A DNA stretch of 35,140 nt. It comes from Plantactinospora alkalitolerans (GTDB lineage: Bacteria > Actinomycetota > Actinomycetes > Mycobacteriales > Micromonosporaceae). Where the stretch lies: NCBI RefSeq assembly GCF_015690345.1, contig NZ_JADPUN010000262.1, positions 1 to 35,140 of the forward strand, written 5' to 3'. The stretch's first letter is position 1. Each line of letters opens with the position of its first letter. A program made the position numbers and the translations under genes. The notes beneath the pieces are model-generated. The model was not told the DNA's origin and made no database searches. It saw only the letters and a program-made list of their open reading frames with translations. This document shows positions 2,207 to 31,524 of the stretch, in pieces.

Positions 2207-2836
2207 ATGGATGACCGAGGCGACGAGACCCTCCTTGCCACCCTCAAACGGGTCGCCGCCGTCCTCAAGCAGTCCGAGATTCCGTTCGCGCTGGGCGGCA
2301 GCTTCGCCGTCTACGCCCACGGCGGCCACTCCAGCGACCACGACGTGGACTTCCTCATCCGGGAGCAGGACACCGAGCGCGCCCTGGAAGCGTTGGTCGA
2401 GGCCGGCTTCACCGCCGAGCGGCCGCCGGAGGACTGGCTCGTCAAGGTCTGGGACCACGACCGGTTGGTGGACCTGATCCACCGGCCGATCGAGACGCCG
2501 GTGACCGACGAGACCTTCCGGGACACGGTTGTCCGGCCGGTCGACGCCATCCACATGCCGGTGCTCTCCGCCACCCACCTGATGGTGCACAAGTTGCTGA
2601 GCTTCTCGCAGCACTACTGCGACTTCGCCCGGGGGCTGCCACTCGCCCGGTCGCTGCGCGAACAGATCGATTGGGACCGCGTACGCAAGGAGACGGCGCA
2701 CTCCCCCTATGCCGAGGCCTTTCTGGTGCTGCTTGACCGGCTGGACGTCGTGCCCTACGGCCCGGCCGGCGAGGAGAAGGAGGTAATGCCCGTGACGACG
2801 GCGAGTGCGGCGAGGAGTCCACATGGCCAAGCGTGA
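2207..2836 (+). CDS. Nucleotidyltransferase-fold protein
   Basis: This 209-residue protein carries the polymerase-beta-type nucleotidyltransferase signature. Residues 30-32 are GGS, followed about 13 residues later by SDHDVDFLI, which supplies the first two metal-binding aspartates. A third carboxylate is likely in LVDLIHRP. The architecture matches small MNT-like or DUF-type nucleotidyltransferases that transfer NMP to a protein or small molecule. No partner HEPN toxin is visible. The start ATG at 2207 follows GGGAGA at 2197-2202. It opens a plus-strand operon, and the next gene starts inside its last codons (14-bp overlap). The substrate is unknown. Confidence 0.8.
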   Translation: MDDRGDETLLATLKRVAAVLKQSEIPFALGGSFAVYAHGGHSSDHDVDFLIREQDTERALEALVEAGFTAERPPEDWLVKVWDHDRLVDLIHRPIETPVTDETFRDTVVRPVDAIHMPVLSATHLMVHKLLSFSQHYCDFARGLPLARSLREQIDWDRVRKETAHSPYAEAFLVLLDRLDVVPYGPAGEEKEVMPVTTASAARSPHGQA

Positions 2837-5091: not shown

Positions 5092-5847
5092 ATGGCCTCG
5101 CCGACGTACCTGATGACAATGCCGTTGCACGCCGTGACCGAGGTGTACGGCGAAGCCGGCCTGCGGGACCGGTTCGGACTGGAGACGGCGCGCTTCGATC
5201 CGGCGGAGCGGGACCGCCTGACGGCAGCCCTGGACCTGGCCGGCACGCTGCACCGCGACGACCGCCGGGTACGCGAGCCCTACGTCAACCACCTGCTCCG
5301 GGTCGCGATCCGGATCATCTGCTACTACCACGTCACCGACGTGGACGTGATCGTCGCGGCACTGCTGCACGACGCGGTGGAGGACCATCCGGCGGAACTG
5401 GCCGGACTGCCCGCCGACACGCCCCGCCCGGTCACCACCCCGGCCGCGCTGGCCGCCGTCGCGCAGCGGTTCAACCCCCGGGTCGCCGGGCTCGTCGCGG
5501 CGGTCACCAATCCGGAGTACGACCCCGACCGTGACCGGAACGAGCAGTACCGGGAGCATCTCGCGGAGAGCCTCGACCGGGAGCCGTGGGCTCGGGTGAT
5601 CAAGATTTCCGACTTCACCGACAACGGCGTCGGAGTCATCCACACCACGGGCGACAAGGTGCACCGCTCGGCCCGGAAGTACCGGCCCCTGGTGCCGCTC
5701 TTCCGCGACCTGGTCTGCCGGCCGGACACGCCGCTGTCGGCCGAGGTGCGGACGCACATCCTCGGCCAACTGGACCTCGCCGAGCAGCGCTTCGCGGCCA
5801 TTCTCGACGACCCCCGGGACGTGCCGGCGAGCCGGCCGGTCGGCTGA
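5092..5847 (+). CDS. HD-domain hydrolase, (p)ppGpp-hydrolase-like
   Basis: The protein is about 251 residues and contains an HD metal-dependent phosphohydrolase domain. H54 lies in TLHRDD and H67 in VNHLLRV, H93-D94 in LLHDAVEDH, and the later segment is KISDFTDN. The order H...HD...D with VEDH and the downstream TGDKVHRSARKY is like the hydrolase half of RelA/SpoT proteins and small alarmone hydrolases. No synthetase, TGS or ACT domain is present. Hydrolysis of (p)ppGpp is likely but unproven. The frame is open back to 4954. ATG 5092 (MASPTYL) was chosen because the preceding residues are low-complexity. ATG 5026 and 5113 are alternatives, and none has a strong ribosome binding site. Confidence 0.75.
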   Translation: MASPTYLMTMPLHAVTEVYGEAGLRDRFGLETARFDPAERDRLTAALDLAGTLHRDDRRVREPYVNHLLRVAIRIICYYHVTDVDVIVAALLHDAVEDHPAELAGLPADTPRPVTTPAALAAVAQRFNPRVAGLVAAVTNPEYDPDRDRNEQYREHLAESLDREPWARVIKISDFTDNGVGVIHTTGDKVHRSARKYRPLVPLFRDLVCRPDTPLSAEVRTHILGQLDLAEQRFAAILDDPRDVPASRPVG

Positions 5848-5946
5848 CCGAGCGAACCTCCGGCGGGGCCGCGTCCGACGACCACCCACTGCCAGGTTTC
5901 CGAATCGTTACGGCCTCGTGGCTCTCCGGGTCTGGACGCCCTCCGT

Positions 5947-5960
5947 TGCAAGCGCTTACA
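5947..5960. promoter_or_regulatory. LacI-family operator upstream of the sugar operon
   Basis: TGCAAGC-GCTTACA is a 14-bp palindrome with a single mismatch (A at 5958 instead of G) around the central CG typical of LacI/GalR operators. It lies 70 bases before the start of the sugar-binding protein gene. The LacI-type regulator encoded at the 3' end of the same gene cluster is the obvious ligand. Repression relieved by a glucoside is the expected mode. Confidence 0.7.
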
Positions 5961-6030
5961 TGTGGTGACGCCCACAGTCCGGCACGGAAGCCCGCAGGCG
6001 ACCGGCTCGCCGGCTCGAAAGGAGGACGGC

Positions 6031-7374
6031 ATGGCGGTCAAGTCCAGACCACGCCAGGCCCTCGTGATTGCCAGCGTGTTGACCCTGGCACTCGGCGCCA
6101 CCGCCTGTTCCGGCGATAGCGACAGCGGGCTCGACCCGGACTCTCCGGAGTGTGCCCCGTACACGAACTACCAGGGTCACGACGGTGAGTCGGTCTCCAT
6201 CTACGCGTCGATCCGTGACAAGGAGGCCGACCTGCTCCGGGAGTCCTGGAAGCAGTTCGAGGAGTGCACCGGCATCGAGATCGACTACGACGGCAGCGGC
6301 GAGTTCGAGGCGCAGCTCCAGGTCAAGGTCGACGGCGGCAACCCGCCCGACCTGGCCTTCATCCCCCAGCCGGGGCTGCTGGCCCGGTTCGCCGAGGCGA
6401 ACAAGCTGAAGCCGATGACGCCGGAGCTGAAGACCATCGCCGACGGCAACTACCCGGCGGACTGGCTCAAGTACGCCACCGCGGGCGGGCAGCTCTACGG
6501 CACGCCGCTCGGCGCCAACGTGAAGTCCTTCGTCTGGTACTCGCCGAAGACGTTCGCCGAGAAGGGCTACCAGGTGCCGACCACCTGGCAGGACCTGATG
6601 GCGCTCAGCGACAAGATCGTCGCCACGAAGCAGAAGCCCTGGTGCGTGGGGCTGGAGTCGGGCGAGGCCACCGGTTGGCCCGCGACCGACTGGATCGAGG
6701 ACCTGATGCTGCGTACGCAGACGCCGGAGGTCTACGACCAGTGGACCACCCACGCAATCCCGTTCAACGACCCCCGGGTGGCCCAGGCGGTCGACCAGGT
6801 CGGCTCGGTGCTGAAGAACCCCAAGTACGTCAACGGCGGCTACGGCGACGTGAAGAGCCTGACCACCACCCCGTTCCAGGAGGGTGGCCTGCCGATCCTG
6901 CAGGGCCAGTGCTCGCTGCACCGGCAGGCGAACTTCTACGCCAACTACCTGCCGGAAGGCACCAAGGTCGGCCCGGACGGCGACATCTACGCCTTCTACT
7001 TCCCGGCCGTCGACCCGAGCAAGGGCAAGCCGGTACTGGGCGGTGGCGAGTTCACCGTGGCGTTCACCGACACGGAGGCGACCCAGGCGGTCCGCACCTA
7101 CCTCGCCTCCGGTGAGTACGCCAACTCCCGGGCCAAGCTCGGCAACTGGATCACGCCGAACAACAAGCTCGACGTGAGCAACGTGCAGCAGGAGGTCGAC
7201 AAGCTCGCGATGCAGGTCCTGCTCGACAAGAGCGCGGTCTTCCGGTTCGACGGTTCCGACCTGATGCCCGCCGCCGTCGGCTCGGGCACCCTGTGGAAGG
7301 GCATGATCGACTGGGTCAACGGCAAGGACACCAAGAGCACCCTCGACTTCATCGAAGGCTCCTGGCCGAAGTAG
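6031..7374 (+). CDS. aglE: Alpha-glucoside ABC transporter substrate-binding lipoprotein
   Basis: This 447-residue family 1 extracellular solute-binding protein delivers oligosaccharides to an ABC importer. The N-terminus is a lipoprotein signal (basic MAVKSRPRQ, hydrophobic core, GATAC with Cys as the lipidated residue). The mature part has the two-lobed binding-protein layout with the family motif NPPDLAFIPQPGLL and later PLGANVKSFVWYSPKTF. The start ATG 6031 sits behind an excellent AAAGGAGGA site (6018-6026). Two permeases and a GH13 glucosidase follow in the order of the rhizobial aglEFGA genes, so alpha-glucosides such as maltose, sucrose or trehalose are likely ligands. The symbol is by homology of layout; the ligand is inferred. 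Confidence 0.85.
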   Translation: MAVKSRPRQALVIASVLTLALGATACSGDSDSGLDPDSPECAPYTNYQGHDGESVSIYASIRDKEADLLRESWKQFEECTGIEIDYDGSGEFEAQLQVKVDGGNPPDLAFIPQPGLLARFAEANKLKPMTPELKTIADGNYPADWLKYATAGGQLYGTPLGANVKSFVWYSPKTFAEKGYQVPTTWQDLMALSDKIVATKQKPWCVGLESGEATGWPATDWIEDLMLRTQTPEVYDQWTTHAIPFNDPRVAQAVDQVGSVLKNPKYVNGGYGDVKSLTTTPFQEGGLPILQGQCSLHRQANFYANYLPEGTKVGPDGDIYAFYFPAVDPSKGKPVLGGGEFTVAFTDTEATQAVRTYLASGEYANSRAKLGNWITPNNKLDVSNVQQEVDKLAMQVLLDKSAVFRFDGSDLMPAAVGSGTLWKGMIDWVNGKDTKSTLDFIEGSWPK

Positions 7375-7445: not shown

Positions 7446-8516
7446 ATGGAGTTCTCCGACGAGGCACCGAAACTGATGATGCTGCTGTACGGCCTGGTCG
7501 CGTTCGCGGTCGTGGTCGGCGGCCTGCTGGTGCTGCTGGACGTCGTACCCGCGTGGTTCGCCCGACGCCGCGAGGCGGCCCTGCTCGCGGCGGCCTCGGC
7601 CGGCGCGGTGCGGACCGGGGCGGCACCGCCGTCGCGCCGCCGCTCGGTGGCCAACCGCCGGGAGGGCGGCCTCGGGCTGTTCTTCCTGCTGCCGACGCTG
7701 CTGTTGCTGGTCGTCGGACTGATCGTCCCGGCCGTCCGGACCACCCTGCTGTCCTTCATGGACGGAAACAGCCGGAACTGGGTCGGGCTGAAGAACTACA
7801 CCTGGATGTTCGCCCAGGACGAGATCTTCAGCGTGCTGACCAACACCCTCATCTGGGTCATCCTGGTCCCGCTGGTGGCCACCGCCGTCGGCCTGGTCTA
7901 CGCCGTCCTGGTCGACCGGGCCCGGTTCGAGTCGGCGGCCAAGGCCCTGATCTTCATGCCGATGGCGATCTCGTTCGTCGGTGCCAGCATCATCTGGAAG
8001 TTCGTCTACGCCTACCGGTCCGGCGAGTACGCCCAGATCGGCCTGCTCAACCACGTCTGGAAGATGCTCGGCGGCGAGCCGCAGCAGTGGCTCTCCAACC
8101 CGCCGCTGAACACCCTGCTGCTGATCGTGATCATGATCTGGATCCAGGCCGGCTTCGCCATGGTGGTGCTCTCGGCCGCGATCAAGGCCATCCCGGCCGA
8201 GATCATCGAGGCGGCCCGGCTCGACGGCGTCAGTCCGTGGCAGATGTTCTGGCAGATCACGATGCCGAGCATCCGGTCGGCCCTGATCGTCGTCGTGGTC
8301 ACCGTCTCGATCGCCACGCTCAAGGTCTTCGACATCGTCCGGACCACGACCAACGGCAACTACGACACGGGTGTGATCGCGAACGAGATGTACAACCAGG
8401 CCTTCCGGTTCGGCCAGACCGGACAGGGCTCGGCACTGGCCGTGTTCCTCTTCGTGCTGGTGATCCCGATCGTGATCTACCAGGTCCGCAACCTGCGCAA
8501 GCAGCGGGAGGTATGA
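7446..8516 (+). CDS. aglF: Sugar ABC transporter permease, AglF-like
   Basis: This 356-residue inner-membrane permease is of the MalF/AglF kind. An extra N-terminal membrane helix (about residues 12-34) is followed by a basic cytosolic stretch, then the permease core. The coupling motif is EIIEAARLDGVSPWQMFWQITMP, the EAA loop that docks on the ATPase. ATG 7446 has TAGGAGG at 7434-7440. It forms a heterodimer with the next gene product. The extended N-terminus with a helix followed by an Ala/Arg-rich linker is characteristic of AglF compared with MalF of other systems. The end abuts the next gene, with one base between stop and start. Confidence 0.88.
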   Translation: MEFSDEAPKLMMLLYGLVAFAVVVGGLLVLLDVVPAWFARRREAALLAAASAGAVRTGAAPPSRRRSVANRREGGLGLFFLLPTLLLLVVGLIVPAVRTTLLSFMDGNSRNWVGLKNYTWMFAQDEIFSVLTNTLIWVILVPLVATAVGLVYAVLVDRARFESAAKALIFMPMAISFVGASIIWKFVYAYRSGEYAQIGLLNHVWKMLGGEPQQWLSNPPLNTLLLIVIMIWIQAGFAMVVLSAAIKAIPAEIIEAARLDGVSPWQMFWQITMPSIRSALIVVVVTVSIATLKVFDIVRTTTNGNYDTGVIANEMYNQAFRFGQTGQGSALAVFLFVLVIPIVIYQVRNLRKQREV

Positions 8517-8517
8517 G

Positions 8518-9486
8518 ATGACCACCACGACCCCGCCCGCGCTGCTCACCCCACCCACCAGGCCGACCGGACCGGAGACCCGGGCCGCCCGGGTACGCCG
8601 GCGCCTCAACAACCCGGTCGCCACCGGCATCTCGATCGTCATCGCGGTGATCTGGACGATCCCCACCTTCGGCCTCTTCGTCTCCTCGTTCCGACCCGAG
8701 GACGAGATCAAGACCACCGGCTGGTGGACGGCGTTCACCGACCCGCAGTTCACCCTCCAGAACTATCAGGAGGTGCTGTTCGGCCGGTCGTCGTCGTCCG
8801 GGCAGCTCGCCGGCTACTTCATCAACTCGATGGTGATCACCATCCCGTCGGTGCTGTTCCCGCTGGCCTTCGCCGCGCTCGCCGCGTACGCGCTGTCCTG
8901 GATCAACTTCCGGGGCCGGGACTGGATCTACATCGGCATCTTCGCGCTCCAGATCGTGCCGCTCCAGATGGCCCTGGTGCCCCTGCTCAGCTTCTTCTCC
9001 GAGGGGGCGAGCGTGTTCGGTATCCCGCTCACCCCGGCGTGGAACCTGGAGGACGAGGGGAAGTTCATCCAGGTCTGGTTCGCGCACACCTGCTTCGCGC
9101 TGCCGTGTGCCGTCTTCCTGCTGCACAACTTCGTGTCCCAGCTACCGAAGGACCTGATGGAGGCGGCCCGGGTCGACGGCGCCAGCCACCCGAAGATCTT
9201 CCGGTCCATCGTGCTGCCGCTGATCGTGCCGGCGCTGGCCGCGTTCGGCATCTTCCAGTTCCTCTGGGTCTGGAACGACCTGCTGGTGGCGCTGATCTTC
9301 GCCGGCGGCGGCAACGAGACCGCGCCGCTGACCGTACGCCTCGCCGAGTTGGCCGGTACCCGGGCCAACGAGTGGCAGCGGCTGACCTCCGGCGCGTTCA
9401 TCTCGATCGTCGTACCGCTGATCGTGTTCCTGTCCCTGCAGCGTTACTTCGTGCGTGGCCTGCTGGCCGGCGGCGTCAAGGGCTGA
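8518..9486 (+). CDS. aglG: Sugar ABC transporter permease, AglG-like
   Basis: This 322-residue MalG/AglG-type permease pairs with the upstream permease. It has about six hydrophobic helices and the EAA coupling loop LMEAARVDGASHPKIFRSIVLP, and it ends with the family pattern QRYFVRGLLAGGVKG. ATG 8518 follows GGGAGGT and begins one base after the upstream stop, so the two subunits are translationally coupled. No ATP-binding subunit is encoded in this cluster. In actinobacteria many sugar importers share one genomic ATPase (MsiK), and that is the likely partner here. Confidence 0.88.
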   Translation: MTTTTPPALLTPPTRPTGPETRAARVRRRLNNPVATGISIVIAVIWTIPTFGLFVSSFRPEDEIKTTGWWTAFTDPQFTLQNYQEVLFGRSSSSGQLAGYFINSMVITIPSVLFPLAFAALAAYALSWINFRGRDWIYIGIFALQIVPLQMALVPLLSFFSEGASVFGIPLTPAWNLEDEGKFIQVWFAHTCFALPCAVFLLHNFVSQLPKDLMEAARVDGASHPKIFRSIVLPLIVPALAAFGIFQFLWVWNDLLVALIFAGGGNETAPLTVRLAELAGTRANEWQRLTSGAFISIVVPLIVFLSLQRYFVRGLLAGGVKG

Positions 9487-9558
9487 CCGGGCCCGGCACC
9501 AGGTCCCGCCCGGCGTCCGGCGCCTCCGCCGGTGGGTACGTCCGGAACGGATGGCACC

Positions 9559-12360
9559 GTGACCAGAATCGAGGACGTCGCCCGGTTGGCGGGGGTCTCC
9601 ACCGCCACCGTCTCCCGGGCGCTGCGGGGACTTCCGACGGTCTCCGAGACGACCCGGCGCCGGGTGCTGCTCGCCGCCGAGCAACTCGACTACAGCGCGT
9701 CGCCGAGCGCGTCGCGGCTGGCCGGCGGCAAGACCGGCACGGTCGCGGTGATCGTTCCCAGGATCACGCCCTGGTTCGTCGGTGCGGTGGTCGAGGCCGC
9801 CGAGGAGGTGCTGCACCGCGCCGGGTACGAGTTGCTGCTCTACAACATCGGTGGTCGGGAACATGCCCGGCACCGCCTGCTGCACCGGGCGAACCTGCCC
9901 AAGCGGGTCGACGCGGTGATGCTGGTCGCCACGCCGCTGGGTACCGACGACCTGGCGACCATTGCCAGCCTGGCGCTGCCGGGCGTCACCGTCAGCTCGG
10001 GCACGGTGGTACCGGGCTGGCCGAGCATCCGGATCGACGACCTGGCCGCCGGCCGGACCGCCACCGAACACCTGCTGGGCCTCGGCCACCGCCGGATCGC
10101 CTGCATCTCGGGCGATCCCGCCGACGAGTACGCCCACCCCGCCCATCTGGAGCGGCGACGCGGCTACCAGGAGGCGCTGCACGGGCGCGGGATGCTCCCC
10201 GAGCCACGGCTCAGCGTCGAGAACCGGGCCGACGCCGAGGGTGGCCGCCTGGCGACCGAGGAACTGCTCGCCCGGGGCGACAGGCCGACCGCGATCTTCG
10301 CCAGTTGCGACGAGATGGCGATGGGCGCCGTCAACGCGCTGCGGACCGCCGGCGTACGGGTGCCACAGGAGATCAGCGTGGTCGGCATCGACAACCACGA
10401 CCTGGCCGGCGCGTTCGGGTTGAGCACCGTCGCCCAGCCCGCCGCCGAGCAGGGCCGGCTCGCCGCAGGTACGTTGCTGGGACCACTGGCCGGCCGGTCC
10501 CGGACCGACGGCGAGCCGACCCCGGTGATTCTGCCCACCTGGCTCGTCCCACGTGACTCGACCGGTCCACCGGGGAAGACTGAAGGCCAACCGGTCCGAG
10601 CCCGACGGGAGAGCATCCTGAACACGCCCGACACGATGTCCGAGTCCCACCTTCCCGCCACCGCGTCCACCGGCACCGAGCCGGACGTCGCCCGCCGGCC
10701 CGACCCGGCGGGTCCGTGGTGGCGGCACGCGGTCATCTACCAGATCTATCCCCGCTCGTTCGCGGACTCCGACGGCGACGGCATCGGTGACCTGCCCGGG
10801 ATCATCGCCCGGCTGGACCACCTCGTCGAACTCGGGGTCGACGCGGTCTGGCTGTCGCCGTTCTATCCGTCGCCGCAGGCGGACGCGGGCTACGACGTGG
10901 CCGACTACCGCGACGTGGACCCGATCTTCGGTCGGTTGGCGGACGCCGACCAGCTCCTGGCCGCCGCCCGGTCGCGCGGGCTGCGGGTTCTCGTCGACCT
11001 GGTCCCCAACCACACCTCCTCGGCCCATCCGTGGTTCGGCGCGGCGCTGGCCGCCGGTCCCGACGGCCAGGAGCGGGCCCGCTACGTCTTCCGGGACGGC
11101 CGTGGCCCGGACGGCGCGGAACCGCCGAACGACTGGCAGAGCGTCTTCGGCGGGCCGGCGTGGACCCGGGTGACCGAACCGGACGGCCGACCGGGCCAGT
11201 GGTACCTGCACCTGTTCGACACCGGCCAGCCGGACCTCAACTGGGACCGTCCCGAGGTACGCGCCGAGTTCGTCGACATCCTGCGGTACTGGCTCGACCG
11301 GGGCGTGGACGGCTTCCGGGTCGACGTCGCGCACGGCCTGGTCAAGCAGGCCGACCTGGCCGACTGGCGGCCGCAGGACGAACCCGTCTCCGGCCCCGGC
11401 ACCGAGGGACCCCGCCCGCCGATGTGGGACCAGGACGGCGTACACGAGATCTATCGGGACTGGCGGCGGGTGCTCGACTCGTATCCGGGCGAGCGGATCC
11501 TGGTCGCCGAGGCGTGGGTGCAGCCGGCCGAGCGGCTGGCCGCGTACGTCCGGCCGGACGAGATGCACCAGGCGTTCAACTTCGAGTACCTGGAGGCGTC
11601 CTGGAGCGCTCCGGCCCAGTACGCGGTGATCACCCGCTCGTTGGCCGCCTCCGCCGCGGTCGGCGCCCCCACCACCTGGGTGCTGTCCAACCACGACGTT
11701 CTCCGGCACGCGACCCGGCTGGCGCTGCCGGTCGGCACTCCCCGGCCGCGTGGCATCGGCGTCGACGATCCGCAGCCGGACCCCGTGCTGGGGCTTCGCC
11801 GGGCCCGTGCCGCCACCCTGCTGATGCTCTCGCTGCCCGGGTCGGCCTATCTCTACCAGGGCGAGGAACTGGGCCTGCCGGAGCACACCACGCTGCCCGA
11901 CGAGTCCCGGCAGGACCCGACCTGGGCGCGCAGCGGCCACGCCGAGCGGGGTCGGGACGGTTGCCGGGTGCCGATCCCGTGGGAGGCGGACGCGCCGTCG
12001 TACGGCTTCGGCCCGGGAGACGCGAGCTGGCTGCCCCAGCCGACCCTCTGGGCCGAGTACGCCCTGGACCGGCAGCGCGGGGTGCCCGGCTCGACGTACG
12101 AGGTGTACCGGACCGGCCTGCGGCTGCGCCGCGAGCTGCGACTCGGCACCGGCAGCGTCTACTGGTTGGAGAGCCCGGACGGGGTGCTGTACTTCCGCAA
12201 CGGCGCGCTGCGGGTGCTGACCAACTTCGGCGCCGACCCGGTGGAGCTGCCGGCGGGCGCCGAACTGGTACACGCCAGCGGGCCGCTGGACCCGGACGGC
12301 CGGGTACCGACCGACGTCACCGTGTGGCTGCGGCCGGGCGACGAACCCGGCGAGGCCTGA
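9559..12360 (+). CDS. LacI-family regulator fused in frame to GH13 alpha-glucosidase
   Basis: One open frame of 933 codons (942 if GTG 9532 is the start) encodes two complete proteins. Residues 1-335 or so are a LacI regulator: helix-turn-helix TRIEDVARLAGVSTATVSRAL, then the periplasmic-binding-like sensor with TVAVIVPRITPWFV, and VVGIDNHDLAGAF near its end. Residues about 375-933 are a GH13 glucosidase. Between them lies a linker of about 30 residues without a stop. Elsewhere these are separate genes, as in rhizobial aglR and aglA. GTG 9559 was chosen because GGAACGG lies eight bases upstream and the protein then begins MTRIEDV. A TGA at 10581 is out of frame, so a small frameshift or point change could have removed the regulator's stop. 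A true fusion, two in-frame cistrons and a sequencing error all remain possible. Confidence 0.75.
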   Translation: MTRIEDVARLAGVSTATVSRALRGLPTVSETTRRRVLLAAEQLDYSASPSASRLAGGKTGTVAVIVPRITPWFVGAVVEAAEEVLHRAGYELLLYNIGGREHARHRLLHRANLPKRVDAVMLVATPLGTDDLATIASLALPGVTVSSGTVVPGWPSIRIDDLAAGRTATEHLLGLGHRRIACISGDPADEYAHPAHLERRRGYQEALHGRGMLPEPRLSVENRADAEGGRLATEELLARGDRPTAIFASCDEMAMGAVNALRTAGVRVPQEISVVGIDNHDLAGAFGLSTVAQPAAEQGRLAAGTLLGPLAGRSRTDGEPTPVILPTWLVPRDSTGPPGKTEGQPVRARRESILNTPDTMSESHLPATASTGTEPDVARRPDPAGPWWRHAVIYQIYPRSFADSDGDGIGDLPGIIARLDHLVELGVDAVWLSPFYPSPQADAGYDVADYRDVDPIFGRLADADQLLAAARSRGLRVLVDLVPNHTSSAHPWFGAALAAGPDGQERARYVFRDGRGPDGAEPPNDWQSVFGGPAWTRVTEPDGRPGQWYLHLFDTGQPDLNWDRPEVRAEFVDILRYWLDRGVDGFRVDVAHGLVKQADLADWRPQDEPVSGPGTEGPRPPMWDQDGVHEIYRDWRRVLDSYPGERILVAEAWVQPAERLAAYVRPDEMHQAFNFEYLEASWSAPAQYAVITRSLAASAAVGAPTTWVLSNHDVLRHATRLALPVGTPRPRGIGVDDPQPDPVLGLRRARAATLLMLSLPGSAYLYQGEELGLPEHTTLPDESRQDPTWARSGHAERGRDGCRVPIPWEADAPSYGFGPGDASWLPQPTLWAEYALDRQRGVPGSTYEVYRTGLRLRRELRLGTGSVYWLESPDGVLYFRNGALRVLTNFGADPVELPAGAELVHASGPLDPDGRVPTDVTVWLRPGDEPGEA
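10636..12360 (+). other. aglA: GH13 alpha-glucosidase module, possible internal start
   Basis: This is the hydrolase half of the fused frame and could be made alone from ATG 10636 (MSESHLPATAS, 574 residues). A closer match to a ribosome binding site is GGGAGAG at 10607-10613, four bases before a CTG at 10618. The alpha-amylase barrel opens with VIYQIYPRSFADSDGDGIGD. All four conserved regions are present: DLVPNH, GFRVDVAHG (nucleophile aspartate, codon 11323), LVAEAW (acid/base glutamate, codon 11509) and SNHDV (aspartate, codon 11695). The sequence matches oligosaccharide-cleaving alpha-glucosidases rather than long-chain amylases. No signal peptide is present, so it cleaves imported sugar in the cytosol. 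Confidence 0.7.
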
Positions 12361-12392
12361 ACCGGCGGAGGTGACCGGCGCGACTCGCGGCC

Positions 12393-12986
12393 CTACCGAC
12401 ATCCCAGTTCCGCCAGGTGGGCGGTGACGATCGCCGAGGCCCGGCCGCCGTGGGCCGGTTCCCCGTGCAGGACGCCGTGCAGGATGAGGCCGTCGGTCAG
12501 GACGTACAGGCGATCGGCTTCGAGCTGACGGTCGAGGCCGGCCCGGATCAGGCCGGCCTCGGCCAACCGGTCGACGAGGTTGGTGAAGACCTGGGTCAGC
12601 AGGTGGTGGGTCTGCTCCCGCAGCGGGCGTAGTGCGGGGTCCACGAGGGACCGCGCGGAGAAGGCGAGCCACACCTCGCACTCCGTCCGCCGCTCGGCGT
12701 CCAGCGGCAGCATTTCGGCGATTATCCGGCGTACGAACTCGGCCGGGTCGCCGGTCGGGTCGACGGCGTCCAGCCGGATCCGGATCCGCTCGCCGACCAG
12801 CCGCATCGCGAACACCATCAGGTCGGACTGGGACGCGAACGAGTTCCGCAGCGATCCCGCCGACAGGCCGGCCTCCTGGGCGACGTTGCGTACCGACGCC
12901 TGTTGCAGGCCGTCGCGCCGGACGACCCGCCACACCGCCTCGGCGAGCTGGGTACGACGGATCTCCTCGTCGACGATTTTTGGCAT
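12393..12986 (-). CDS. TetR/AcrR family transcriptional regulator
   Basis: This 197-residue protein has the TetR fold. The helix-turn-helix is at residues about 15-60 (LAEAVWRVVRRDGLQQASVRNVAQEAGLSAGSLRNSFASQSDL in part), and a variable ligand domain follows. The frame is open upstream, but ATG 12986 gives the normal TetR length and N-terminus (MPKIVDEEIRR). The gene diverges from a membrane protein gene at 13023, with only 36 bases between. A 10-bp inverted repeat in that gap and the start of the neighbour is the likely binding site, so it probably represses both genes. The ligand is unknown. The gene converges with the GH13 gene, 32 bases away. Confidence 0.9.
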   Translation of the reverse strand: MPKIVDEEIRRTQLAEAVWRVVRRDGLQQASVRNVAQEAGLSAGSLRNSFASQSDLMVFAMRLVGERIRIRLDAVDPTGDPAEFVRRIIAEMLPLDAERRTECEVWLAFSARSLVDPALRPLREQTHHLLTQVFTNLVDRLAEAGLIRAGLDRQLEADRLYVLTDGLILHGVLHGEPAHGGRASAIVTAHLAELGCR

Positions 12987-12999
12987 GCCTCTTTTTAGC

Positions 13000-13035
13000 A
13001 CGACTGTGTTAGCGTTCGGGTTATGACACAGTCGT
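13000..13035. promoter_or_regulatory. Inverted-repeat operator between tetR and membrane protein gene
   Basis: ACGACTGTGT at 13000-13009 and ACACAGTCGT at 13026-13035 form a perfect 10-bp inverted repeat with a 16-base spacer. The right arm lies in codons 2-5 of the membrane protein gene, so binding of the TetR dimer would block transcription start on both sides. Confidence 0.7.
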
Positions 13036-13997
13036 ATCAAAAAACCGTGGCCTACGGGCTGCTCGGCTGGTGCGCCGTCAACCTGGCCGCCATCGCACTT
13101 GCCCCGCACGGTGCCCCGTTCGACTGGCCCGGCCAGCACCGCCCGCCGTCCGGCCCCACGCAGGTCCTCGACGCCCACCTCGTACTGGCCGAGGTGACCG
13201 TGCTCGCCCTGCTCGCCTGGCTGCTGACCCGCCGCTCCGCCCCCGCCCTGCCGGCACGGACGCCGGCCGCCCGGACGGAGGTGCTCGGCCTGCTGGGATA
13301 CGGCCTGATGGTGCAACTGCTCGGCGCCGCGCTCGGGGTGACCCTCGGCTGGCACCCGATCAGCTTCCACCTGGCCGGCTCGGTCGTCGGCACGCACGAC
13401 GCGGTGAGCCCGACCGAGGCCTGGGTCTGGGCCGGCTACAACTGCGTCGCCTACGCCGTCATCCCGCTGGTCTGGTTCCGCCGGCGCTACTCGGCCCGGT
13501 CGCTCTGGCTACGCTCGCAGAACCGGCGGCGGGACGCCCGGGTGATCGTCGTCGTGCTGGCGGTCGAGGCGACCATCCAACTCCTGGTTCTCGGCGCGGC
13601 CATCGTCAAACTGGACGGATCCCAACTGCTGCTCGGGATGCCGCTGACGTTCCTGCTCTACCTGCTGGGCACCGGGCTGCCGACCCTGGTCTTCGTCCAG
13701 GCCATCCTGGTTCCCCGGTACGCCCAACTGACCGGCTCCACCCCAGCCACCGTCCTGCTCGGCGGACTGACCTACGCCGCGCTGCACGCCGGCGACGCGT
13801 GGACGATGTTCGGCAGCGTCCGCGAGGTCGCCACCTCCCTGGTGTTCGTCCTGCTGCTCTACGCCGTGCCCGGGATGTTCAAGACGTTCCTCACGCTGCG
13901 CACCGGCAACGCCTGGGTGCACCTGTGGGCCTACCACGCCATCGCGCCGCACACCCTGCTCGACACCCCGCTCGTCGTACGCATCTTCCGGCTGTAG
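13023..13997 (+). CDS. Multi-pass membrane protein, possible degenerate CPBP fold
   Basis: The 324-residue protein has about eight hydrophobic helices and no signal peptide. Its C-terminal part (LVFVQAILVPRYAQLTG, then LTYAALHAGDAW, then WAYHAIAPHT) follows the spacing of CPBP intramembrane proteases, including the His of motifs 2 and 3. The paired glutamates of motif 1 are absent, so proteolysis is unlikely. ATG 13023 was chosen because upstream codons are noncoding. There is no ribosome binding site, and the mRNA may be nearly leaderless. It is controlled, by position, by the divergent TetR regulator. Membrane proteins paired this way with TetR often take part in stress or drug response, but nothing here fixes the role. 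Confidence 0.7.
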   Translation: MTQSYQKTVAYGLLGWCAVNLAAIALAPHGAPFDWPGQHRPPSGPTQVLDAHLVLAEVTVLALLAWLLTRRSAPALPARTPAARTEVLGLLGYGLMVQLLGAALGVTLGWHPISFHLAGSVVGTHDAVSPTEAWVWAGYNCVAYAVIPLVWFRRRYSARSLWLRSQNRRRDARVIVVVLAVEATIQLLVLGAAIVKLDGSQLLLGMPLTFLLYLLGTGLPTLVFVQAILVPRYAQLTGSTPATVLLGGLTYAALHAGDAWTMFGSVREVATSLVFVLLLYAVPGMFKTFLTLRTGNAWVHLWAYHAIAPHTLLDTPLVVRIFRL

Positions 13998-17697: not shown

Positions 17698-19320
17698 CTA
17701 CGGTGCGCAACTCGGATCGCGCTCGCCGAAGTCGGCACACCGGAACAGTGAAGGGTTCACCTGCGACGGCGGGCGCCACTTCAGCGAGGCCTGCTCGTAG
17801 TCGTACGCCAGGGCCAGCAGTCGGGCCTCGGTGTAGGCGGTGCCGAGGAAGGACATCCCGACCGGGCGCCCGTTCGCCGGGTCGTACCCGATCGGTACCG
17901 CGACCGACGGATACTGGGCGCGGGCGCCGATCCCGGCGGACCCGCTGCCGACGAAGACGATCGCGTCCAGGTTCTCAGCGGTCAGTACGGAGTCGATCCG
18001 CTCCCGCGCCCCGGCGATCCCGGTGTCCCGGTTGGTCTCGTACTCCGCCCTGGCGGCCGGGTCGGTCAGGTCGACGTCGTTCGAGGCCGTGAGCTGGGTC
18101 TGGCCGAACTTGATCGTTCCCTCGTCGACGTGCGCGAGGTTGTAGCGCACCACGTCGTCCAGGGTGTCGATCGGCGCGCTGCGCGGCAGCCGGGCCAGGT
18201 ACGCGTTCAGGTCCCGCTTGAACTCGTACGTCAGGATGCTCGGCGGCAGCCCGCCGGTGTTCACGGTGACCGGGACGACCGTGGCGCCCCGGGCCCGGAG
18301 CACGTCCAGCGCCTCGGTGAACAGCACCCCCTGGTTGCCGGTCGGGCTGCTGGCAACCCCGATCCGCCTGCCCTGCAACGCGGTGTCGGAGAGCACCCTG
18401 GTGTAGTCGGTGCCGACCACGCCCGAGCTGGTACCGGTGGCCGGGTCCTCCGGGTCGATCCCGGTCAGCGCGGTGAGCAGCGCGGCGGCGTCGTAGACGG
18501 TCCGGGTCATCGGGCCGGCGGTGTCCTGGCTGGCCGCGATCGGCACCACACCGGTCCGGCTGACCAGCCCAACGGTCGGCTTCACCCCGACCAGGGAGTT
18601 CGCCGCCGCTGGGCTGAGGATCGAGCCGGACGTCTCGGTGCCGATGGTGACCGTGGCGAGCGCCGCCGCGGCGGCCGATCCGGAACCGGAGCTGGACCCG
18701 CTCGGGGTCTGGCTGACGTCGTACGGGTTGAGCACCTGACCGCCGAGTCCGCTGTAGCCCGACGGCATTCCGTTGGTGGTGAAGTTGGCGAACTCGGTCA
18801 GGTTGGTCTTGCCGAGGATGATCGCGCCGGCCGCCTTCAGCCGGGTCACCAGGAAGGCGTCCCTCGCCGGGTACGAGTGCGCCAGTGCCAGCGCCCCGGC
18901 GGTGGTCGGCAGGCCCTGAAGGTCGATGTTGTCCTTGATCAGCACCGGGATGCCGTGCATCGGCCCCCGGACGCGGCCCTTGCGGCGGTCCTGGTCGGCC
19001 CGCCTGGCCTGGGCGACGGCATCCCGGGTGACCACCCGGACCGCGTTCAGCCCCGGCCCGTTGGTGTTCAGTGTCCGGATCCGCTCCAGGTACGCCTCGA
19101 CGAGTTCCTCGGAGGTGATCCGCCGGGCGGCCAACGCCTCCCGGATCTGCGGGATGCCGGCGCGCTCCAGGTCGAGCGGGAACGGCCGGTGCCGCCCGGT
19201 CGCCTCGGAGGGGGCGCCGAGGGTGGTGGCGACGAGCGCGGCGACGCCGAGCAGGACGGTGGCGAGTACGACGATCCGGAACGCGGAACGCGGCCGGGAT
19301 GGCACAACGGGATGATGCAC
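17698..19320 (-). CDS. Secreted amidase, amidase-signature family
   Basis: This 540-residue protein belongs to the amidase-signature family of C-N hydrolases. The catalytic triad is visible: Lys129 in PVLIKDN, cis-Ser209 in the TPSGSSSGSGSA stretch, and the nucleophile Ser233 in GTETSGSI. A hydrophobic segment near residues 14-37 (IVVLATVLLGVAALVATTLGA) is a signal peptide or membrane anchor, so the enzyme is exported. GTG 19320 was chosen because GGAAGGG lies eight bases upstream; the frame continues to 19392 without another good site. Relatives hydrolyse amides or peptides of varied structure, and the substrate is not predictable. It ends convergent with the ABC exporter gene, 19 bases apart. 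Confidence 0.88.
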   Translation of the reverse strand: MHHPVVPSRPRSAFRIVVLATVLLGVAALVATTLGAPSEATGRHRPFPLDLERAGIPQIREALAARRITSEELVEAYLERIRTLNTNGPGLNAVRVVTRDAVAQARRADQDRRKGRVRGPMHGIPVLIKDNIDLQGLPTTAGALALAHSYPARDAFLVTRLKAAGAIILGKTNLTEFANFTTNGMPSGYSGLGGQVLNPYDVSQTPSGSSSGSGSAAAAALATVTIGTETSGSILSPAAANSLVGVKPTVGLVSRTGVVPIAASQDTAGPMTRTVYDAAALLTALTGIDPEDPATGTSSGVVGTDYTRVLSDTALQGRRIGVASSPTGNQGVLFTEALDVLRARGATVVPVTVNTGGLPPSILTYEFKRDLNAYLARLPRSAPIDTLDDVVRYNLAHVDEGTIKFGQTQLTASNDVDLTDPAARAEYETNRDTGIAGARERIDSVLTAENLDAIVFVGSGSAGIGARAQYPSVAVPIGYDPANGRPVGMSFLGTAYTEARLLALAYDYEQASLKWRPPSQVNPSLFRCADFGERDPSCAP

Positions 19321-19462
19321 CTGAACGCCCTTCCAGAAGGCCACGTACGGGCGCACGGACACCCGGACGCGGAGGGGATGTCGGAAGCACACGACTCAGG
19401 TGTTGACATTACGATGCGGACCGATTTCAGCCGAGTAAAACGATCTTCGTAGCGGGGCGTCG

Positions 19463-25868: not shown

Positions 25869-26638
25869 CCTCGCGTCCGATCGAGCTTGGCCAGCCGGTG
25901 CAGCACCTGGTCCACCGTGGGCTCGGAAAACTGGTCCACCAGCCGGCCATCGGCGAGGACCAGGACCTGGTCCGCTACAGCGGCCGCCACGGGATCGTGG
26001 GTCACCATCACCACGGTCCGGCCGAACTCGTCCACCGATCGGCGCATCAGACCGAGCAGCCGGCCGCCGGTGCGGGAGTCCAGGTTTCCGGTCGGCTCGT
26101 CGGCGAAGACGATCTGCGGCTGGGTCACCAGCGCCCGAGCCAGCGCGACCCGCTGCTGCTGCCCGCCGGAGAGTTCTGCCGGCCGGTGTCCGAGCCGGCC
26201 GGCCAGGTCGAGCGCCGCCACGATGGACTCCAGCAGGGCGGCATCGGGGCGTTGCCCACCGATGGTCAGGGGCAGGATGATGTTCTCCGCGGCGGTGAGC
26301 GTCGGGACCAGGTTGAACGACTGGAACACGAACCCGATCTCGCGTCGACGCAGGTCGGTCAGTTGCCCGTCGGAGAGCGTGTCCAGGGCGGTGGCGCCGA
26401 GGTAGACCGAGCCGCCGGACGGACGGTCCAGCCCCGCCAGGCAGTGCATCAGGGTGGACTTTCCCGACCCCGAGGGCCCCATCACGGCCGTGAACCGGCC
26501 GGCGGGGATGTCGACGTCGACCGCGTCGAGCGCCACGACGCGAGCAGACCCGGTGCCGTAGACCTTGTTCAGGCCGACGGCGCGGGCGGCCGGCGGCGGC
26601 CCCTGCGGAGCCGGTACAGCTGTGGCCGAACTGATCAT
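25865..26638 (-). CDS. MacB-type ABC transporter ATPase
   Basis: This 257-residue ATPase drives the FtsX permease encoded next to it. Motifs: Walker A GPSGSGKST (54-62), Q-loop Q106 in FVFQSFNLVPTLTAAENI, signature ELSGGQQQRVALARAL (from about 155), Walker B IVFADEPTGNLD and switch His in VTHDP. The phrase FNLVPTLTAAENI is typical of the LolD/MacB/FtsE class. ATG 26638 has GGAAGG six bases upstream. The frame continues upstream, but that part is not conserved in type. Confidence 0.93.
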   Translation of the reverse strand: MISSATAVPAPQGPPPAARAVGLNKVYGTGSARVVALDAVDVDIPAGRFTAVMGPSGSGKSTLMHCLAGLDRPSGGSVYLGATALDTLSDGQLTDLRRREIGFVFQSFNLVPTLTAAENIILPLTIGGQRPDAALLESIVAALDLAGRLGHRPAELSGGQQQRVALARALVTQPQIVFADEPTGNLDSRTGGRLLGLMRRSVDEFGRTVVMVTHDPVAAAVADQVLVLADGRLVDQFSEPTVDQVLHRLAKLDRTRG

Positions 26639-30459: not shown

Positions 30460-31524
30460 TCACTCGGAATTGCGGATGGTCGGCCACTCCGTCGGGATGA
30501 AGTCGTCGGGCGCGTTCAAAACGTTGATCATCCGCTGGCGGATGCTCTCGTGCATCAACGGTCCCCAGGGGAACTTCGTCGGGTACTGCACGATGTTCGC
30601 GAAGACGTTCGCCGGCCCGTCGTTCTGCTCCAGGTACTGGATGGCGGCCTGGGTACAGACATAGTCGGCGTACGCCAGCGCCTGGTGGGCGGTGGTCATC
30701 AGGGCCTCGGTGCCGGGCTGGTGGCGCAGGTACGGCTCGAACCACGGCAGGTCGACCCCGGGCATCGGGGTGGGTTGGAACTGAAGATCGTTGGAGAGCA
30801 CGATCGGCAGCGGGTCGTCCTTGATCCCGTTGGCCTGGGCGAGCATCTGGGCACCGGCCAGGACGCCGCCGGGCTCGGCCAGGTCGAGCAACCGCTGCCG
30901 GCCGATGACCACGTGCTGATTCTTCTGCATGTACCTGTCGAGACCCAGTGGATCGTCCGGGAAGTCGAACGCGATCTCGGCCAGCGCCTCGACCCGATCC
31001 TTCCGGCCACGGTTGTTGTAGTAGGTGATCATCCAGCTCATCGCCTTCGGGGCGTACTGCGGGTCGCTGGTGGCCCGTGCCTGGGCCATCGCGTCGCGGG
31101 CCTTGTCATGGTCGCCCGCCCGCTCGTGGTTCAGGGCGATGTGGAACCAGGCGACCGCGCTGTAGCCGAGCCGGTACGGCTCCAGGAGCGCATGCCACAA
31201 CTCCGTCGCCCGCTCGTAGTTCTCCATCCGGGTCCAGTGGCCGGCGAGCAGCAGCTTCGCCGCAGGCGTGTAGATTGGATGGTCACCCTCGGCGGCGATC
31301 CGTAACCCGTCCACACTGCTCGCGAGCTGTCGGTGCGTGTACGGGACCGCCTTCGCCAAGGCGAGAAGGAACGCCGCCTCGATCCGGTAGGGAGCACCCG
31401 GGGCAGCCTCCGCGAGCCCTTTGAGCTGGCCGACGGCCGACTCCGGCTCGCCGGTCAACAACAACTCGAATGCGTCCCGGCACACCGCCGCGCGGCGGAG
31501 ACGTTCGGCATTGGTCTGGTCCAT
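30460..31524 (-). CDS. TPR-like helical repeat protein, unknown function
   Basis: The protein is 354 residues. The first 200 residues are paired helices with TPR-like spacing (AAKLLLAGHWTRMENYERATELWHALLEPY, in two parts, then WFHIALNHERAGDHDKARDAMAQA). The C-terminal 150 residues (including QAANG-type loops and FANIVQYPTKFPWGPLMHESI) are unlike any family I know. No signal peptide is present, so it is cytosolic. ATG 31524 has GAGGAGG six bases upstream; the open frame further upstream is not coding. A TTA codon for Leu74 lies at 31303-31305. It diverges from the acylase gene. Confidence 0.75.
   Translation of the reverse strand: MDQTNAERLRRAAVCRDAFELLLTGEPESAVGQLKGLAEAAPGAPYRIEAAFLLALAKAVPYTHRQLASSVDGLRIAAEGDHPIYTPAAKLLLAGHWTRMENYERATELWHALLEPYRLGYSAVAWFHIALNHERAGDHDKARDAMAQARATSDPQYAPKAMSWMITYYNNRGRKDRVEALAEIAFDFPDDPLGLDRYMQKNQHVVIGRQRLLDLAEPGGVLAGAQMLAQANGIKDDPLPIVLSNDLQFQPTPMPGVDLPWFEPYLRHQPGTEALMTTAHQALAYADYVCTQAAIQYLEQNDGPANVFANIVQYPTKFPWGPLMHESIRQRMINVLNAPDDFIPTEWPTIRNSE

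Follow-up and report, generated by a model that had tools for sequence, protein, structure and literature searches.

The closest described arrangement is the amlR-amlE gene pair of Actinoplanes sp. SE50/110, in which AmlR represses the maltase gene amlE and, in the passages of the source that describe the locus, a LacI/PurR-type gene lies directly upstream of a GH13 maltase gene in one operon; arrangements of a LacI/PurR-type repressor with a maltase gene are likewise reported there in Micromonosporaceae (PMC6828939). The locus analysed here, carried on a contig of Plantactinospora alkalitolerans, has the same order, with a LacI-family gene immediately 5' of a GH13 glucosidase gene on the same strand, a likeness that holds by description and not by alignment with the AmlE and AmlR sequences. 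Unlike amlR-amlE, as described in the same passages (PMC6828939), it has transporter genes upstream of the repressor, and where the aml operon has a downstream GGDEF-EAL gene, a TetR-type gene is found on the other strand. The junction differs as well: amlR and amlE are two separate genes (PMC6828939, same passages), as are their counterparts in 54 of 54 relative loci, whereas in the window (the whole stretch analysed, one contig of 35,140 bases from a draft of 441 contigs) the two are joined as sequenced.

The best match of the GH13 half among solved structures is to 8yif and 8yie, likewise GH13 and entered as alpha-glucosidases (residues 34-572 counted from the CTG codon discussed below, E 3.8e-159); the matched chains, of 575 and 550 residues, are without a repressor domain, unlike the frame in the window. 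A repressor and a glycosidase joined in one frame by mutation are known from the laboratory lacI-lacZ fusions. Those fusions were made and selected in the laboratory, whereas the one considered here is known from the sequence of one genome. A search of open-licence papers, mostly at the level of titles and weak for that purpose, brought up no natural LacI-GH13 fusion and no CTG start in this gene family that we could recognise.

The initial annotation had described a LacI-family regulator and a GH13 glucosidase in one unbroken frame with neither half decayed, and this description holds. The frame at 9559-12360 (+) translates into 933 codons without an internal stop and encodes a complete LacI-family repressor followed by a complete GH13 catalytic domain, with three Pfam domains in frame: a LacI helix-turn-helix (residues 4-46), Peripla_BP_3 (170-335) and the alpha-amylase catalytic domain (395-859). 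Both halves look intact in the translation, and the glucosidase part contains the motifs DGFRVDVAHG, LVAEAW and LSNHD, which we take to have catalytic roles in the GH13 half. With NCBIfam, no listed family reached its cut-off for either half (for the glucosidase, 25 of 31 families were listed). An open frame alone is nevertheless weak evidence for a fusion, because the opposite strand of this G+C-rich stretch holds a 1263-codon ORF (9142-12933, -), which illustrates how open frames arise by chance at high G+C content, and because in 50 of the 54 relative loci the GH13 frame extends without interruption upstream to the LacI stop or beyond it.

The locus has the appearance of a sugar operon, which would comprise a binding protein (SBP_bac_1, 5962-7374, +, start approximate), two ABC transporter permeases (7446-8516 and 8518-9486, both +), the LacI-family repressor and the GH13 alpha-glucosidase. 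Ahead of the transporter genes, where an operator had been proposed at 5947, a LacI-type operator-like palindrome is indeed found at 5946-5961 (+), with 2 mismatches to TTGCAAGCGCTTGCAA; it is the single match to this pattern against 0.06 expected, and at least one match was obtained in 6 of 100 shuffled sequences. A scan of 9400-12500 for promoters and terminators found nothing. Convergent to the operon, a gene at 12393-13397 (-) matches TetR_C_6 and has a long N-terminal part without a Pfam match. Elsewhere in the window, 2207-2836 (+) encodes a nucleotidyltransferase-like protein (NTP_transf_5, with a weaker Aminoglyc_resit match).

Comparative analysis of the gene pair was performed on two sets of sequences. 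In a sample of 200 genomes of the family, the listed matches that cover both halves number at least 36, of which 35 contain one or more stops and that of the window alone contains none; same-frame pairs are over-represented in the list of the best 30 such matches, because the search joins in-frame pieces. Separately, 128 loci were considered, of which 55, the window included, were kept and 73 left out, the rule being a GH13 gene with a LacI gene within 600 nt upstream at an identity of at least 60%. The repressor-glucosidase pair is present in all seven genomes of the genus that were compared (7/7), and the LacI stop precedes GH13 in all 54 relative loci, being absent only in the window. An evolved, tethered repressor-enzyme fusion, as the initial annotation had proposed, is therefore not supported: the joined frame is seen in none of the 54 relative loci and in none of the 35 other listed spanning matches. 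In one of these relatives (L020, G037) the LacI match is itself split near residue 241 between two frames, a possible frameshift or error. As to the reading frames, the GH13 frame extends upstream beyond the LacI stop in 20 of the 22 relative loci with the genes in different frames; of the 32 same-frame loci, 30 have a GH13 frame closed only by the LacI stop itself. One lesion could thus join the two genes, and since the GH13 frame is mostly open past the LacI stop, the entry of LacI into it is unsurprising.

Such a lesion is seen at 10572. The nearest relative (G004), whose LacI and GH13 halves are 93% and 96% identical to those of the window, has a LacI gene ending in TGA and the GH13 gene in another frame. 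The alignment places a one-base gap in the window relative to G004 behind position 10572 (10572-10573, +), 8 bases ahead of the position of the G004 LacI stop. The TGA itself is retained in the window at 10581-10583, out of the LacI frame; since a base is missing relative to G004, the repressor frame passes over this stop and continues into that of the glucosidase. The LacI-family gene would accordingly be delimited as 9559-10583 (+), with its Pfam-aligned part extending to codon 335 and the stop position of the relatives as its end. The initial annotation had named beforehand, as evidence against a fusion, a stop of close relatives in the vicinity of 10581; such a stop is found at the homologous place in G004, and the loss of one base, which the annotation had offered as an alternative, agrees with the alignment. 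Taken together, these data make it very probable that two ordinary genes were merged by one base, in the cell or in the assembly, and that the second of them has a start codon, CTG, which is rare and yet widely shared in the family.

The missing base could be a draft-assembly error, in which case the strain would have two ordinary genes like its relatives, and we consider this explanation nearly as apt to be right as wrong. It is in agreement with a draft of 441 contigs, with the position of the lesion inside a G-rich run, and with a fused frame found in no relative, whether among the 54 loci or among the other listed spanning matches. The quality of the assembly speaks in the other direction. 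The window and 20 other stretches of the same genome were compared with 25 stretches of G004 over about 86 kb of alignment, and frameshift screens flagged 3 of 59 pieces when the genome's own ORFs were used (about 66 kb of coding sequence) and 4 of 60 with those of G004. Among all flags in the aligned sample, we judged that at 10572 to be the only shift inside a gene. Those at 26377 and 1643 on the G004 side fall at the end of the alignment or at the stop of the ORF; those at 31396 in the window and at 5852 in L181 lie ahead of a likely start, ATG and Met respectively; and those at 5168 and 7479 in L195 probably lie close to where an ORF begins or represent small shifts that are compensated. 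A gap near 19373, a one-base length difference upstream in an amidase gene (17698-19392, -), was also checked, and the amidase reads intact both in this genome and in G004. The sampled assembly is therefore not frameshift-rich, a point slightly in favor of a real mutation; on balance, we regard a base truly lost from the strain and one lost only in assembly as about equally probable.

Alternatively, the deletion is real and the sequence has been caught soon after the joining, the repressor existing only as a LacI-glucosidase chimera and free glucosidase being made from the CTG that the family shares, a reading that is plausible and somewhat on the doubtful side. Under a real deletion, ribosomes finishing the repressor would continue into the enzyme and yield a chimeric protein of roughly 100 kDa, and initiation at the CTG by other ribosomes would give free glucosidase. 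The repressor half should still fold, because its Pfam-aligned part ends before the altered position. LacI with C-terminal additions works in the laboratory, and since such additions are tolerated, regulation may be little changed.

With or without the lesion, the glucosidase is probably translated from its own signals, at a rate that would be modest. Between the LacI stop and the WW..A(V/I)IYQ motif of the enzyme, a block is conserved that consists of GGGAG, about 6 bases and CTG AAC A. In the window it corresponds to a Shine-Dalgarno-like GGGAGAG at 10607-10613 (+) and a CTG at 10618-10620 (+), both present, as the initial annotation had stated, together with an ATG at 10636-10638 (+) in the same frame as the CTG. 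After removal of 3 near-duplicates from the 55 loci, 52 distinct ones remained, the window included, and an in-frame CTG behind a Shine-Dalgarno-like site is found in 42 of these, 41 by pattern and one (L150) by eye, its next codon, AAT, being unmatched by the pattern. The other ten comprise 6 loci with GTG at the position of the CTG, 3 that use an ATG elsewhere (L020, L025 and L077) and one (L065, Micromonospora sp. ATA32) in which the block is out of frame with GH13 through a change in start-to-enzyme length in a draft; this last was excluded from the codon-conservation and tree counts. The open frame ahead of the motif is devoid of ATG, GTG and TTG in 28 of the 52 distinct loci; the window has its ATG at 10636. 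In one relative (L021, G012), the LacI stop and the glucosidase CTG share bases in the sequence CTGA, an overlap seen in no other of the 49 relative loci whose start was found by pattern.

The base composition around this codon is in agreement with a start. When 47 loci (41 CTG, 6 GTG) are pooled, the G+C content at codon positions 1, 2 and 3 is 0.632, 0.650 and 0.903 behind the start (2283 nt) and 0.706, 0.713 and 0.738 before the Shine-Dalgarno-like site (2256 nt), so that the coding signature, as seen at the third position (0.903 vs 0.738), begins at the start. Of the 47 peptides listed, 40 have Asn as the second residue, followed by Thr or Ser as the third. Since the block is conserved in the relatives, we strongly infer that the glucosidase gene (10618-12360, +) starts at CTG 10618 behind its own ribosome-binding-like site, which favors the separate cistron that the initial annotation had listed among its alternatives. 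With a start of its own, the glucosidase would be independent of the fusion. Initiation at ATG 10636 instead is unlikely: this codon is in frame in both the window and G004, but no Shine-Dalgarno-like site precedes it, the conserved block with its CTG-AAC is kept in both genomes, and the 28 loci mentioned above have no canonical start at all.

CTG is described as a weak and rare bacterial start codon (PMC11497404, PMC5622118). In the parts of these sources that concern CUG, its complexes with initiator tRNA are said to be less stable (PMC11497404), and switches to it were counted in only 2 of 61,358 AUG, 1 of 5,080 GUG and 1 of 2,468 UUG ancestral starts (PMC5622118). These published CUG starts are few and the switches very rare, whereas here one gene seems to share its CTG across dozens of species. 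To place the start codons on a phylogeny, a tree of 51 GH13 proteins was used. The CTG is distributed over most of its branches and the start codon changes 5 times, compared with a median of 9 changes at fourfold sites, of which 23 out of 83 show at most 5 changes. Because these 23 sites change as rarely, we make no claim of selection for CTG as such, and the conservation of the codon is not exceptional by this count. When only the 42 loci with CTG are taken, no variation is seen in 1 of 97 fourfold columns and in 2 of 30 Leu columns, but the selection of these loci by that very codon makes the comparison circular.

A deletion that is real and has produced a functional, selected fusion, with enzyme turnover coupled to sugar sensing on the operator, would fit two intact-looking halves in an open frame, but it is very improbable, the joined frame being found in 1 of 55 loci and 1 of 36 listed spanning matches, and the loss of the downstream gene's own translation start, a hallmark of fusion, not being seen here, where the Shine-Dalgarno-like site and CTG are retained at 10607-10620.

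Were the strain to carry the chimera, it would parallel in nature the lacI-lacZ fusions made in the laboratory. Most likely, however, the fusion, as a one-base event or an error in one genome, teaches little beyond the ease with which neighbouring high-GC genes come to read as one. The more useful by-product is the start codon, the CTG being the only plausible start of the glucosidase in many species. Gene callers restricted to ATG, GTG and TTG would miss or shift this start, and the glucosidase gene may serve as a natural example with which to study why CUG starts are retained in bacteria.
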